Origin: Thermincola carboxydiphila
GTDB taxonomy: Bacteria; Bacillota; Thermincolia; Thermincolales; UBA2595
Length of the DNA: 39,763 bases
Assembly: GCA_016841725.1 (NCBI GenBank)
Contig: JAENYP010000022.1
Span: forward strand, 1-39,763
Direction of reading: 5' to 3'
The notes below the pieces were generated by a model. The model was not told the origin of the DNA, did not search any database, and saw only the letters and a list, made by a program, of their open reading frames with translations. Shown in pieces: positions 50 through 13,537 of this stretch. A program made the position numbers and the translations under genes. The number at the start of each line of letters is the position of its first letter. Positions within the stretch are counted from its first letter, which is position 1.

Positions 50-82
50 AAAAAGGGCACTCCCCTAAGGAAATGCCCTTTG
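50..82 (-). terminator. Rho-independent terminator of the cold-shock gene
   Basis: On the minus strand AAAGGGCA pairs with TGCCCTTT across a short loop, and a run of five T follows. It sits about 15 bases past the stop codon of the cold-shock gene. The group II intron starts within a few bases of the T-run. Confidence 0.8.
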
Positions 83-96
83 AATATTTGTCCTGA

Positions 97-294
97 CTAC
101 TTGCGGACTACATTGGCGGCCTGCGGACCGCGGTTACCTTCAACGATGTCAAATGAAACTTCCTGACCTTCGTCAAGAGTCTTAAACCCATCGCTCTGAA
201 TAGCTGAGAAATGAACGAACACATCGCCGCCTTCTTCAGCCTCAATAAAACCAAAACCCTTTTCAGCATTAAACCATTTTACTTTACCTTCCAT
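97..294 (-). CDS. csp: Cold-shock domain protein (CspA family)
   Basis: This 65-residue protein is a single cold-shock domain, an OB-fold that binds single-stranded RNA and DNA and melts mRNA structure. RNP1 (KGFGFIE) and RNP2 (VFVHFSAI) are both intact, and length and start ([17 protein letters not shown]) are typical of the family. The ribosome binding site AAGGAGG lies just upstream. A probable promoter at 413-441 would give a leader of about 110 nucleotides, as is usual for cold-inducible csp mRNAs, whose leaders act as thermosensors. The gene is monocistronic, ended by the hairpin at 50-82. The family call is secure; whether this copy is cold-inducible or constitutive is inferred only from the leader. 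Confidence 0.96.
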
Positions 295-412
295 TTTGAA
301 AACCTCCTTTAATCAGACTGATCAAAAAGTTAAAACTCAAAATCTTTTTGCCCAACTCTGAAATTGAGGCCAAAAATGGTTTTGCGTTTTCAACCCTTTA
401 ACACGTGAATTA

Positions 413-9388: not shown

Positions 9389-10078
9389 TCAATCTTCCTC
9401 ACTGAAATAATAACCCACACCCCATTTTGTCTGAATATACTGCGGCTTTCCAGGCTCAGGTTCAATTTTCTCCCTAAGTCTCCTGATATGGACATCAACG
9501 GTACGGTCTTCCCCGATATAATCATAACCCCATATATCCTCCAGAAGCTTTGCCCTGGTAAAGACCCTGCCCGGCGCGCCTGCCAGGTGCAGCAGCAGCT
9601 CAAACTCCTTGCCGGTAAGGTCAACTTCCCTCCCGCCGGCTGAGACCTTCCTTCTGGATGTATCGATGACTATTTCTCCGCGCACTAACTGCCCGGTCTC
9701 TTTTCCCGGCTCATGGCTGGAACGCCTGAGAACTGCTTTGATACGCGCCAGAAGTTCCCTGAAGTTAAACGGTTTGGCCAGGTAATCATCTGCCCCCATT
9801 TCCAGGCCAATGATTTTGTCAATATCATCACCCCTGGCAGTCAGCATAATAATAGGAACCCCGGACATTGACCGGACCTCCCGGCACAGGGTCAGGCCAT
9901 CTACCCCGGGGAGCATGATATCAAGAATTATCAGATCAAATTGATTTTTCCTGACCTTCTCCCTGGCAGACTCACCGTCAAATGCCGCCTCAGTCTGGTA
10001 ACCTTCATTATTCAGGCTCTTGGCCAGACCTTTCACCAAGAGCTTTTCATCATCAACAATCAGGATTTTTGCAGCCAT
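9389..10078 (-). CDS. OmpR/PhoB-family response regulator
   Basis: The 229-residue protein has an N-terminal receiver domain with the acidic pair DDE at 9-11, the phospho-acceptor Asp in LIILDIMLPGVDG (near 52), Thr in MLTARGD and Lys in DYLAKPF. The C-terminal winged helix (about 130-226) has EFELLLHLAGAPGRVFTRAKLLE and the recognition helix DRTVDVHIRRLREKIE. It is a DNA-binding transcription factor phosphorylated by the adjacent kinase. An extended -10 promoter lies at 10111-10119. Targets are unknown, but the trailing GerM lipoprotein hints at an envelope or sporulation role. Confidence 0.95.
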   Translation of the reverse strand: MAAKILIVDDEKLLVKGLAKSLNNEGYQTEAAFDGESAREKVRKNQFDLIILDIMLPGVDGLTLCREVRSMSGVPIIMLTARGDDIDKIIGLEMGADDYLAKPFNFRELLARIKAVLRRSSHEPGKETGQLVRGEIVIDTSRRKVSAGGREVDLTGKEFELLLHLAGAPGRVFTRAKLLEDIWGYDYIGEDRTVDVHIRRLREKIEPEPGKPQYIQTKWGVGYYFSEED

Positions 10079-10119: not shown

Positions 10120-10329
10120 CAGTATTTGGACGGCAAGCCATAAACCCAGTTGAGACTGATTAGACGCATCACAATTTTCAGGTAGTTCTATTAAGAAGTT
10201 GAACGCTATCAATTATGCCAGACACTTATATGTTCATACAAATTAACACTGCCCCGGTTAAACTCAGAAACATCCTTCAGGAAATAGGGTAAAAGGTTAT
10301 ATCAAGTTAGGCTTTTAGATTGTTAATAA

Positions 10330-10501
10330 GACAGGGGTGGATGTGTTCCGGAAGGCGGAGTCTGTCGTCCGTCCGGCCACGTCGAACGGGCTCTTTGCGT
10401 TTTAGCGCTTAGAGCCCGTTGTACCCTTTGGGTAGACCCGCAAAGCGGGAGCGGATGCCGGCGGAGACGTAGCCCGCCGGAGGAATACATCTACCCCTGT
10501 C
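10330..10501 (+). other. Structured element with 20-bp terminal inverted repeats: candidate noncoding RNA or MITE
   Basis: This 172-bp stretch has no gene on either strand. Its ends pair: GACAGGGGTGGATGTGTTCC at 10330-10349 matches the complement of 10482-10501 at 18 of 20 positions. Inside are stacked hairpins at 10387-10418 (CGGGCTCT/AGAGCCCG), 10421-10434 (TACCC/GGGTA), 10437-10449 (CCCGC/GCGGG) and 10458-10480 (CCGGCGG/CCGCCGG). The result is a multi-branched fold closed by a long stem. A strong terminator with a plus-strand T-run follows at 10546-10598. I do not recognise the family. It may be a structured RNA, perhaps mobile-element associated, or a miniature transposon. I see no clear target-site duplication and no clear promoter. 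Confidence 0.6.
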
Positions 10502-10541
10502 CATGTTACATTTTAAAAACCTAATAAATATAGGATTTGTC

Positions 10542-10598
10542 AAAAGCTAAGCTAGGCTCGTCCAAATTCGCATTTGGCATAGCTTAGCCTTTTTATTT
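10542..10598. terminator. Strong, possibly bidirectional terminator
   Basis: GCTAAGCTAGGC pairs with GCATAGCTTAGC and encloses a second perfect stem CCAAAT/ATTTGG. On the plus strand CTTTTTATTT follows, and on the minus strand GCTTTTG. It ends thrC on the minus strand and could end a plus-strand RNA coming from 10330-10501. The better T-run is on the plus strand. Confidence 0.8.
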
Positions 10599-10619: not shown

Positions 10620-12119
10620 TTACAGTCCCAATATTTCTTCGATGTCTCTTTTGATTTCACCTTTATCGGAAACCCGGTGATGCCTCACGGGCTTGGCATC
10701 AAGATTCTGCAGTCCCCGGTGGATTTCCATTCCTGAAATATCTGCCAACTCCCGGAGAATTTCAAATTCATCTTTGCCGGTATCGGCCTCCTGCCCTTTT
10801 AAAGCCTTCAATACAGCACGGTTAAACTTAAAGGGACTTGCCGTCGCATCCAGAACGGTTACAGTCCTGTCCCCCGTCCGCCGGACATAGTCGTCATAGA
10901 CCTTAACCCCCACAGCAGTATGGGTATCAACTGTATAACCATAATTTTCAGATACCGTTTTTATGGTTTCCAGGGTTTCCACCTCACCCGCATAGCCGGC
11001 GCTCAGGATATGCTCTGTTTCTCTAAGGGTATTTTCATCTACCTGAAACTGGCCCTCTGTGTTCAACTGCCCCAGCCATTCACTGATTTCCCCCCCGTCG
11101 TGGCGGGTCACTTCAAATAAAAAGCGTTCCAGGTTGCTTGAAATCAGGATATCCATGGAAGGGCTGACTGTTTTGATAAATTCCCGGTTACGGTCATACT
11201 TCCCTGTGGCAAAGAAATCGGTCAGCACCCTGTTTTCATTGGAGGCACAAATCAGTTTATTAACCGGGAGCCCCATTCTGAAGGCATAATAACCGGCCAG
11301 GATGTTGCCGAAGTTTCCGGTGGGAACCACAAAATTGACTTTATCCCCCTGTGAAATGGCCTTTTTACCAACCAGGTCAAGGTAGGCCCAGAAGTAATAC
11401 ACAATCTGGGGAAGCAGCCGCCCCCAGTTAATTGAATTGGCAGAAGACAATTCATATCCCTTGTCTGCCAGATACCTGTTGTAAGCCTCATCCCCGAAAA
11501 CCTGTTTCACGGCATTCTGACAGTCGTCGAAATTACCCCTGACTGCCACCACATATGTATTGTCACCATCAGTGGTGGTCATCTGGAGTTCCTGGACCTT
11601 GCTGACACCGCCATGTGGATAGAATACTATAATCTTTATCCCCGGAACATTTTTAAATCCTTCCAGGGCGGCTTTGCCGGTATCCCCTGATGTTGCCACC
11701 AGGATAACCGTCTCCCTCTCTGCCCCCAGTTTCTCAATAGCTTTTGACAGGAAATGGGGCATTATCTGCAGGGCCATATCCTTAAAAGCTGCCGTAGGGC
11801 CGTGCCAAAGCTCCAGGATATAGGAACCGGCATCAAGTTTACTTAGCGGAGCCATATCCGGATGGTCAAAATTGCTGTCATTATAGGCTCTTTGGATACA
11901 ATCATCAATCTCTTCCGGAAGATAGTCTGTGAGGAACATCCCCAGTATCTCCCGGGCAACTTCCCGGTAACCCTTCCCCACAAGCCCAACGAGTTTTTCG
12001 GCATCGATAGGCGGGATTTCTTCAGGTACAAACAAGCCTCCCGGAGGCACCATTCCAAGTTTAATGGCTTCTGCAGAATTAACGCTGTTGAAATTACCTC
12101 TTGTACTAACGTACTTCAT
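10620..12119 (-). CDS. thrC: Threonine synthase
   Basis: The 499-residue PLP enzyme converts O-phosphohomoserine to threonine, the last step of threonine synthesis. The N-terminal domain MKYVSTRGN..GLFVPE is typical of the long (type II-like, about 450-520 residues) form. The PLP-binding lysine is K113 in GPTAAFKDMALQ. The phosphate-binding loop VATSGDTGKAALEGF and the later SSANSINWGRLLPQ and PTGNFGNILAGYYA are all present. The ATG has GGAG upstream, and a near-perfect promoter lies at 12152-12180. The gene stands alone here, with no hom or thrB in the window. The tnpB element begins a few bases beyond its -35 box. Confidence 0.96.
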   Translation of the reverse strand: MKYVSTRGNFNSVNSAEAIKLGMVPPGGLFVPEEIPPIDAEKLVGLVGKGYREVAREILGMFLTDYLPEEIDDCIQRAYNDSNFDHPDMAPLSKLDAGSYILELWHGPTAAFKDMALQIMPHFLSKAIEKLGAERETVILVATSGDTGKAALEGFKNVPGIKIIVFYPHGGVSKVQELQMTTTDGDNTYVVAVRGNFDDCQNAVKQVFGDEAYNRYLADKGYELSSANSINWGRLLPQIVYYFWAYLDLVGKKAISQGDKVNFVVPTGNFGNILAGYYAFRMGLPVNKLICASNENRVLTDFFATGKYDRNREFIKTVSPSMDILISSNLERFLFEVTRHDGGEISEWLGQLNTEGQFQVDENTLRETEHILSAGYAGEVETLETIKTVSENYGYTVDTHTAVGVKVYDDYVRRTGDRTVTVLDATASPFKFNRAVLKALKGQEADTGKDEFEILRELADISGMEIHRGLQNLDAKPVRHHRVSDKGEIKRDIEEILGL

Positions 12120-12334: not shown

Positions 12335-13537
12335 GTGATTCGTACCCATAAAACAACTTTTCGCACTAATAAAAAAGACCTGGAACGGCTTTTTGCCTGT
12401 AACCGCATTTCAGCCCAAGTTTGGAATGATTGCCGTGAACACGCTAAAAACCATCACCAGCAAACAGGCCGTTGGATCAACCTAAGTAAACTGCAACAGC
12501 TTACTCGTAAAACATATCACCTCCATAGCCAAAGCGTCCAGTCAGTCCAGGAAAGATATTTAAAAGCAAGAAGAAACGCCTGGAAGGCCAGACAAAAAGG
12601 CTTTATAGATATTCGCTACCCCTACAAAGAAAAAAAGCACTATCCAACCCGGTGGAAAAAAGACGGCTTTGTCGTCCACCCTGACGGGTTAATTAAATTG
12701 AAAATGTGTCTGAACAATGGTAAACGTCAACCACCAATCCGTGTCAGGGTAGCTGACATACCCAAAGGCCAAATCAAAGAAATTGAACTGGTTTGGGATA
12801 GAAGGCTGATGCTGGCTATTAGTTATGAAGATGGCCGCAAGCCCCAGGAAAATAACAATCAATGTGTTGCCGCAATTGATATGGGAGAAATACATGGTAT
12901 TGCCTGCCTTGCCGACAATGGCCGGGTACTGGTCATCACTTCCAGGAAGCTTCGCTCCCAGAAGCGCCTGCGGAACAAAAAATACGCTGAACTTCAGAAA
13001 AAGCTAAGCAGGTGTCAAAAAGGCTCAAGGCGCTGGAAGAAGCTCCGCCGGGCATTGGCTAAAACATTGCAAAAAACAGAAGGACAACAACGGGATATTC
13101 TTCATAAATCCAGCTACCGGTTTGTCAAGTGGGCGAAAACTAACCAAATAGGTCAGGTAGTAGTTGGTGATGTAGATGGTGTCCAGCGAAACACTAAAGC
13201 CCACAAGAAAAATCCGAAAAAGAAACACAGGAGTCGCAAAGTAAACCAAAAGCTGAGTCAATGGCCATTTGGTATTCTGCTTCGGTATCTAACCTACAAG
13301 CTTGCTGCGGCAGGTATTGACTTAACAGAAATAGATGAATCATATACAACACAGACATGCCCTGTCTGTAACCGGAAGAAAAAAGTTTCCGGCAGAACTT
13401 ACCGGTGCTATTGTGGGTATGTAGAACACCGGGATATCCATGGCGCTAAAAACATCTTAGCAAAACACAAATATGGAGCAATTAAAGACCTGGGAATAAA
13501 AATAACCAAGGTCACGTATCTACGGCCCACCGGTTAG
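12335..13537 (+). CDS. tnpB: TnpB-family RNA-guided nuclease with altered RuvC-II
   Basis: The 400-residue protein starts at a GTG after AAGGAGGTG. It has the N-terminal helix-turn-helix and wedge region, a Lys/Arg-rich middle, and a RuvC nuclease split by a C4 zinc finger (C342, C345, C358, C360). RuvC-I has D182 in AAIDMGEIHG and RuvC-III has D367 in EHRDIHGAKNI. At RuvC-II, where the family has a catalytic Glu (VVxEDL), this protein has Gly: QVVVGDVDGVQ (G278, D279). E335 in TEIDESYTTQTC might take over as an alternative acidic residue. TnpB uses an RNA from the element's right end to cut DNA next to a TAM. Whether this one cuts cannot be told from sequence. Confidence 0.92.
   Translation: MIRTHKTTFRTNKKDLERLFACNRISAQVWNDCREHAKNHHQQTGRWINLSKLQQLTRKTYHLHSQSVQSVQERYLKARRNAWKARQKGFIDIRYPYKEKKHYPTRWKKDGFVVHPDGLIKLKMCLNNGKRQPPIRVRVADIPKGQIKEIELVWDRRLMLAISYEDGRKPQENNNQCVAAIDMGEIHGIACLADNGRVLVITSRKLRSQKRLRNKKYAELQKKLSRCQKGSRRWKKLRRALAKTLQKTEGQQRDILHKSSYRFVKWAKTNQIGQVVVGDVDGVQRNTKAHKKNPKKKHRSRKVNQKLSQWPFGILLRYLTYKLAAAGIDLTEIDESYTTQTCPVCNRKKKVSGRTYRCYCGYVEHRDIHGAKNILAKHKYGAIKDLGIKITKVTYLRPTG

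Follow-up and report, generated by a model that had tools for sequence, protein, structure and literature searches.

A GC-rich intergenic block of Thermincola carboxydiphila as a probable MITE-like palindromic repeat with a strand-specific conserved fold

Introduction

The stretch of Thermincola carboxydiphila DNA analyzed here (39,763 nt in full length; "the window") contains at 10330-10502 a gene-free, GC-rich structured block of 172 nt. What kind of element is it? The original prediction, made from the letters alone, left two answers standing, a new structured noncoding RNA or a MITE, and credited the block with a terminator of its own. Here, we examine the fold of the block, its copies in this and other genomes, the sites at which those copies lie, and the pattern of change in their stems.

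Results

A multibranched fold in the spacer beyond thrC

The block lies in a gap of 541 nt, with thrC (10620-12119, - strand) on one side and a response regulator gene (9389-10078, - strand) on the other. It folds far above chance: the + strand of 10329-10501 reaches -111.9 kcal/mol, compared with -66.7 +/- 3.75 for shuffled sequences (z -12), and the - strand of the block reaches -95.3 kcal/mol (z -8.8). The long matched ends are also borne out, and the arms 10331-10350 and 10482-10501 sit within an inverted repeat of 43 nt (10307-10349 and 10482-10524, 77% complementary) that extends into the AT-rich flanks. The internal hairpins are present (10385-10420, approximately 10420-10434 and 10437-10449, with further inner stems between these and the ends); however, they join into a single multibranched rod rather than standing as four separate units. 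The parts of the window copy are as follows.

10330-10502, + strand: GC-rich structured core in its long form (model positions 1-119 plus an inserted module), recognized by the CM R1 match and a fold z of -12
10331-10350, no strand: left arm of the outer core stem, GACAGGGGTGGATGTGTTCC, in a 19-pair helix
10482-10502, no strand: right arm of the outer core stem, GGAATACATCTACCCCTGTC, pairing with the left arm
10380-10434, + strand: optional hairpin module, AACGGGCTCTTTGCG..CGCTTAGAGCCCGTT plus GTACCC..GGGTA, which most copies do not have
10307-10330, no strand: left AT-rich inverted arm, degenerate in the window copy, its left end not sharp
10503-10549, no strand: right AT-rich inverted arm with the TIR-like TTTGTCAAAAGCT at its end, common to other copies up to approximately 10548
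10542-10597, no strand: terminator-like hairpin with a T-run on the + strand, occupying the place of the target terminator hairpin in other copies

The CM R1 match at 10330-10501 scores 124.8 bits on the + strand and 34.5 bits on the - strand. Two further features of the window may be recorded here. A TnpB-like protein of 400 aa, with OrfB_IS605 and Cas12f1-like TNB domains, is encoded at 12335-13537 (+ strand), 1.8 kb from the element, and we saw no link between the two. At 50-388 (- strand), the Rfam cspA thermoregulator (RF01766) is matched at 104.6 bits, in a Thermincola genome.

A dispersed family peculiar to Thermincolia

A search of the window's own genome placed 79 pieces at approximately 45 places among the candidates scored. 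We then trained a covariance model on 26 copies, and among its listed matches 44 distinct places reached E 3.3e-14 or better. Together with approximately 11 short or deleted forms that we read individually, these 44 places put the family at no fewer than 55 copies here; the raw total of 102 model matches, in which some places may appear twice, once per strand, was not used. The flanks vary from copy to copy, and the copies fall into several size classes. The commonest is 119 nt long and lacks module 10380-10434, which is present in the class of approximately 172 nt; others are a 119-nt form with a different inner stem, a collapsed 66-nt form consisting of the outer stems only, and a 188-nt form with a different hairpin module. 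Many copies with variable flanks had been named in advance as the mark of a MITE, and by that standard the family is one.

The family occurs in all ten genomes of the class Thermincolia searched with the covariance model (the class name follows GTDB taxonomy), and the sister species carry tens of copies. Elsewhere in the phylum, 144 genomes scanned with the model under stricter filters gave no match at E 1e-7. The element's 20-mer was met in the genome collection only in Thermincola ferriacetica, and the plasmid and phage collections contained no match to the element. As far as searched, the family is thus peculiar to Thermincolia. One exact 18-mer match among viral contigs lies in an unrelated phage-like contig that the model does not match, and it was set aside as chance.

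The statement that the block belongs to no known family also holds in Rfam. No family there, whether HEARO, raiA or another RNA, scores above its gathering threshold, and relaxing the search to E 10 adds a single weak match on the other strand, which we take as chance. Titles and abstracts of the Thermincola literature yielded no description of such a repeat; the family is apparently undescribed, a weak negative given the form of that source.

Other short repeats accompany the family. The first hairpin of the optional module, AACGGGCTCTTTGCGCTTTAGCGCTTAGAGCCCGTT, stands without the rest of the element at L051:502-552 and L060:590-625, perhaps as an independent small repeat nested in the larger element. 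One subfamily has a recurrent hairpin, GCCCTCTAC..AGC..GCT..GTAGAGGGC, on the left side of the element (L033, L037 and L059, with part of it in L049). The right flank of L027, approximately 150-290 nt past the element, contains another repeat family of approximately 125 nt (GGTGGGGTTTGGACCCC...TCTCCCACCTAAAGAGGTGGGAGTCTAGCGGCGG) that recurs at over 20 places across three genomes and may be an insertion-sequence end. A third short repeat, of approximately 70 nt (CTCCGGAAATGACCGTGGCATATGGTGAGGTGTTGTAC), lies in the left flank of L042 and also at L216, and it occurs dozens of times in these genomes.

Insertion sites and rearrangement in place

In the best-defined subfamily, the full unit is approximately 210 nt long; AT-rich inverted arms, which terminate in repeats of the YTGACAAA type, enclose the GC-rich hairpin core. 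Most copies have inverted arms; the YTGACAAA ends characterize this one subfamily, others have different ends, and those of the window copy are degenerate.

We searched the flanks of 12 copies in two sister species and then read the sites. At L029, a terminator hairpin of approximately 28 nt flanks the element on either side, and the sister genome has this hairpin, GATTAGGGCAGCCTAGGCTGCCCTAATC, once, without the element. L026 repeats this pattern, with one hairpin and no element in sister genome G001, and the sites of L023, L025 and L028 lack the element in G002. Flanking direct repeats scoring at least 24 were found in 9 of 45 copies, compared with 0.05% of mismatched control pairs. Most of these repeats are themselves hairpins, a whole terminator-like hairpin of 16-37 nt being duplicated, and because each is a palindrome, the flanks appear both directly and inversely repeated. 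The family shows three of the properties by which a MITE is recognized: short, non-coding, multi-copy units with variable flanks, terminal inverted repeats, and target-site duplications with empty sites, although no left repeat or target duplication is recognizable at the window copy. In both congeners, the window's own site is a short spacer of only ~80 nt with a different plain terminator, indicating that the element is absent there; the boundaries of the ~400 extra bases in the window are not clean. The empty or element-free sites in sister species support mobility. Movement is not frequent, since many copies lie at sites common to two or three species.

Copies have also been remodeled where they stand. 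The core is inverted at three shared sites (L040/L131, L045/L141 and L035/L124), and at a fourth it has been replaced by another core type within the same outer arms (L059/L145). Module 10380-10434 is present in one genome and absent from another at the shared sites L037/L121 and L040/L149. A deletion of 53 nt between two GGCGGAG direct repeats collapses the core at L052/L136, and L214 is a deleted remnant of which the arms alone are left. Copies are intergenic and lie mostly downstream of genes; in a rough tally of neighbors, with genes called from longest open frames only, orientation relative to genes showed no bias (21 convergent, 10 and 8 tandem, and 4 divergent).

A search of the same genome for the element's ends, allowing up to two mismatches, recognized no transposase-bearing copy among the places read. 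We call the family MITE-like for this reason, as no transposon sharing its ends was recognized there; its partner may have been lost.

Conservation of the fold on one strand

Covariation was measured on 81 copies from ten genomes and seven genera, in an alignment fitted to the model. Across 41 base pairs, 96.4% of cells hold standard pairs, and 32 of the 41 pairs have changed on both sides. Double changes occupy 541 cells against 160 in shuffles, and the covariation score is 0.503 against 0.192, figures that should not be read as probabilities because the shuffles ignore relatedness. Shifting the partner by one column abolishes the signal. A MAFFT alignment that was not fitted to the model (A1) agrees, more weakly (0.217 vs 0.105). 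In a set of 80 distinct sequences, 16 of the 19 pairs of the outer stem show changes in both partners, and compensatory changes can be seen at a single orthologous site (L045 vs L153). The covarying stems sought by the original prediction are therefore present, and covariation supports the secondary structure, as is required of a structured noncoding RNA.

The pattern differs between strands. G-U pairs outnumber A-C mismatches by 373 to 16 overall, and by 133 to 16 after removal of four nearly fixed wobble columns. A G-U pair on one strand would be an A-C mismatch on the other, so it is pairing on the core's + strand that counts. Hairpin-templated self-correction, which operates without selection, could in part generate such covariation. 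As the sole cause it is disfavored, because it would be expected to erase fixed U-G wobbles and asymmetric internal loops, yet both persist class-wide. Many RNAs conserve their unpaired columns above the paired ones; this family does not (0.74 vs 0.79), and we therefore make no case for a particular RNA function.

With covariation this strong and this strand-asymmetric, a structured RNA is a possible reading of the block. One tentative reading, which we hold as possible without favoring it, is a class-wide Thermincolia structured-RNA family that spreads by MITE-like mobility; its core would be transcribed, its fold would function for the host or in its own mobilization, and neighboring genes would be unharmed because each insertion into a terminator duplicates the hairpin. 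That the family is instead a functional structured noncoding RNA, whose many dispersed copies are transcribed from the core's + strand and whose mobility is incidental, seems unlikely to us. Of 45 copies, 12 do have inward TTGACA..TATAAA promoter-like boxes in the forward sense and 13 in the reverse, compared with approximately 5 in shuffles, but these boxes come mostly from one subfamily of related copies, stand on both sides and are missing from the window copy. Hairpin terminators flank many copies, and the covariation, with its G-U preference on one strand, is of RNA quality; against this, cores are found inverted at shared sites and lie in no preferred orientation to genes, unpaired columns are conserved no better than paired ones, and Rfam is silent.

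Candidate partners and the flanking hairpin

Y1 transposases, which are not expected to make target duplications, were considered as partners and rejected, as the Y1 genes scanned show no association with the element and none is found in G002 or G003. It is accordingly very improbable that we are dealing with a REP-type element that is moved by a REP-associated Y1 transposase (RAYT) and folds as ssDNA. The element is palindromic, intergenic and polar with respect to strand, palindromes are known REP targets (PMC3733652), and 7 of the 10 class genomes have Y1 transposase genes; however, the two genomes with no Y1 match are both more than 90% complete and both carry the element, no element lies within approximately 1.5 kb of a scanned Y1 gene, and the element is far longer than REPs of 20-40 bp.

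The terminator attributed to the block requires similar qualification. The hairpin at 10542-10592 exists, followed by the T-run TTTTTATTTA, but its quality is only moderate (z -2.7, moderately better than chance) rather than high, and a simple scanner does not list it. Nor does it appear to be the block's own. It can work bidirectionally and is located immediately downstream of thrC on the - strand, and so need not belong to the block; it occupies the place of the duplicated target hairpin in other copies, also closes thrC, and may well be the thrC terminator. At the window site there is no second copy of this hairpin to the left, and the 211 bases preceding the core are single-copy in this genome. 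A reading of the core itself as an ordinary transcription terminator or mRNA 3'-end stabilizer of thrC, with no life of its own, would suit the position of most copies at gene 3' ends and of the hairpin immediately beyond thrC, but it is already contradicted by the orthologous thrC site of two congeners, a plain terminator with no core, and by the same core next to unrelated genes elsewhere, and we give it almost no credence.

Discussion

We consider it probable that the block is one copy of a MITE-like palindromic repeat that is lineage-specific, mobile without being autonomous, and under selection for its fold as a single strand. The empty sites, the duplicated terminator hairpins and the inversions, core swaps and module changes in place argue for the MITE-like character, and the covarying pairs (32 of 41), with G-U pairs exceeding A-C mismatches even outside the fixed wobbles, argue that the fold of one strand matters. 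Several observations stand against this reading: no autonomous element or transposase with matching ends was found among the places read, target duplications are recognizable in only 9 of 45 copies, the window copy not among them, the many copies at sites common to two or three species speak for infrequent movement, and self-correction could account for part of the covariation. Of the two alternatives first proposed, the MITE was close to the mark, and the covariation leaves room for an RNA.

According to the mobile-repeat model, the element would insert at intergenic sites, mostly downstream of genes, and one subfamily would enter a terminator-like hairpin and duplicate the whole of it (16-37 nt). 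A transposase acting in trans and recognizing the terminal repeats probably moves the element. Once inserted, a core would invert, undergo conversion with other copies, gain or lose hairpin modules, and shorten through deletions between its internal direct repeats. Selection would preserve the fold of one core strand, which is probably recognized as ssDNA or RNA; we infer that it serves as ssDNA in transposition or as an RNA.

Among described elements, the Bacillus cereus group's bcr repeats come nearest, and the Thermincolia family combines features of two sets of them. The MITE-like repeats bcr1-bcr3 (bcr1 is approximately 150 bp) resemble it in being intergenic, high-copy, lineage-restricted, MITE-like, foldable and of similar size (PMC3446304; PMC2267715). 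The Thermincolia family differs in belonging to another lineage, in matching no Rfam family, and in showing modules, in-place inversions, terminator-hairpin duplication and measured strand-asymmetric covariation. With bcr10 and bcr18, proposed RNA elements seen in 5' UTRs, it shares the character of repeated elements with conserved secondary structure (PMC3446304); its copies, in contrast, lie mostly at 3' ends and show no orientation preference. REP elements are 20-40 bp long and tagged at one end, with GTAG types accompanying RAYT genes; GTAG- and CGTC-tagged REPs are likewise palindromic and intergenic, and some REP families are inserted in small palindromes (PMC3733652). Unlike these, the Thermincolia element has no associated Y1 gene. 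HEARO and IS605-orfB-type RNAs offer a parallel as structured RNA parts of mobile elements, but the Thermincolia block matches none of them in Rfam, the lone chance match at E 10 aside.

Small palindromic repeats are common, but a selected fold can rarely be told from one that simply comes with palindromic DNA. A single family that displays strand-asymmetric covariation, empty sites, duplication of whole terminators and inversion at shared sites makes this question testable. Insertion that copies the terminator it enters would, moreover, explain how the element could build up harmlessly at the ends of genes.
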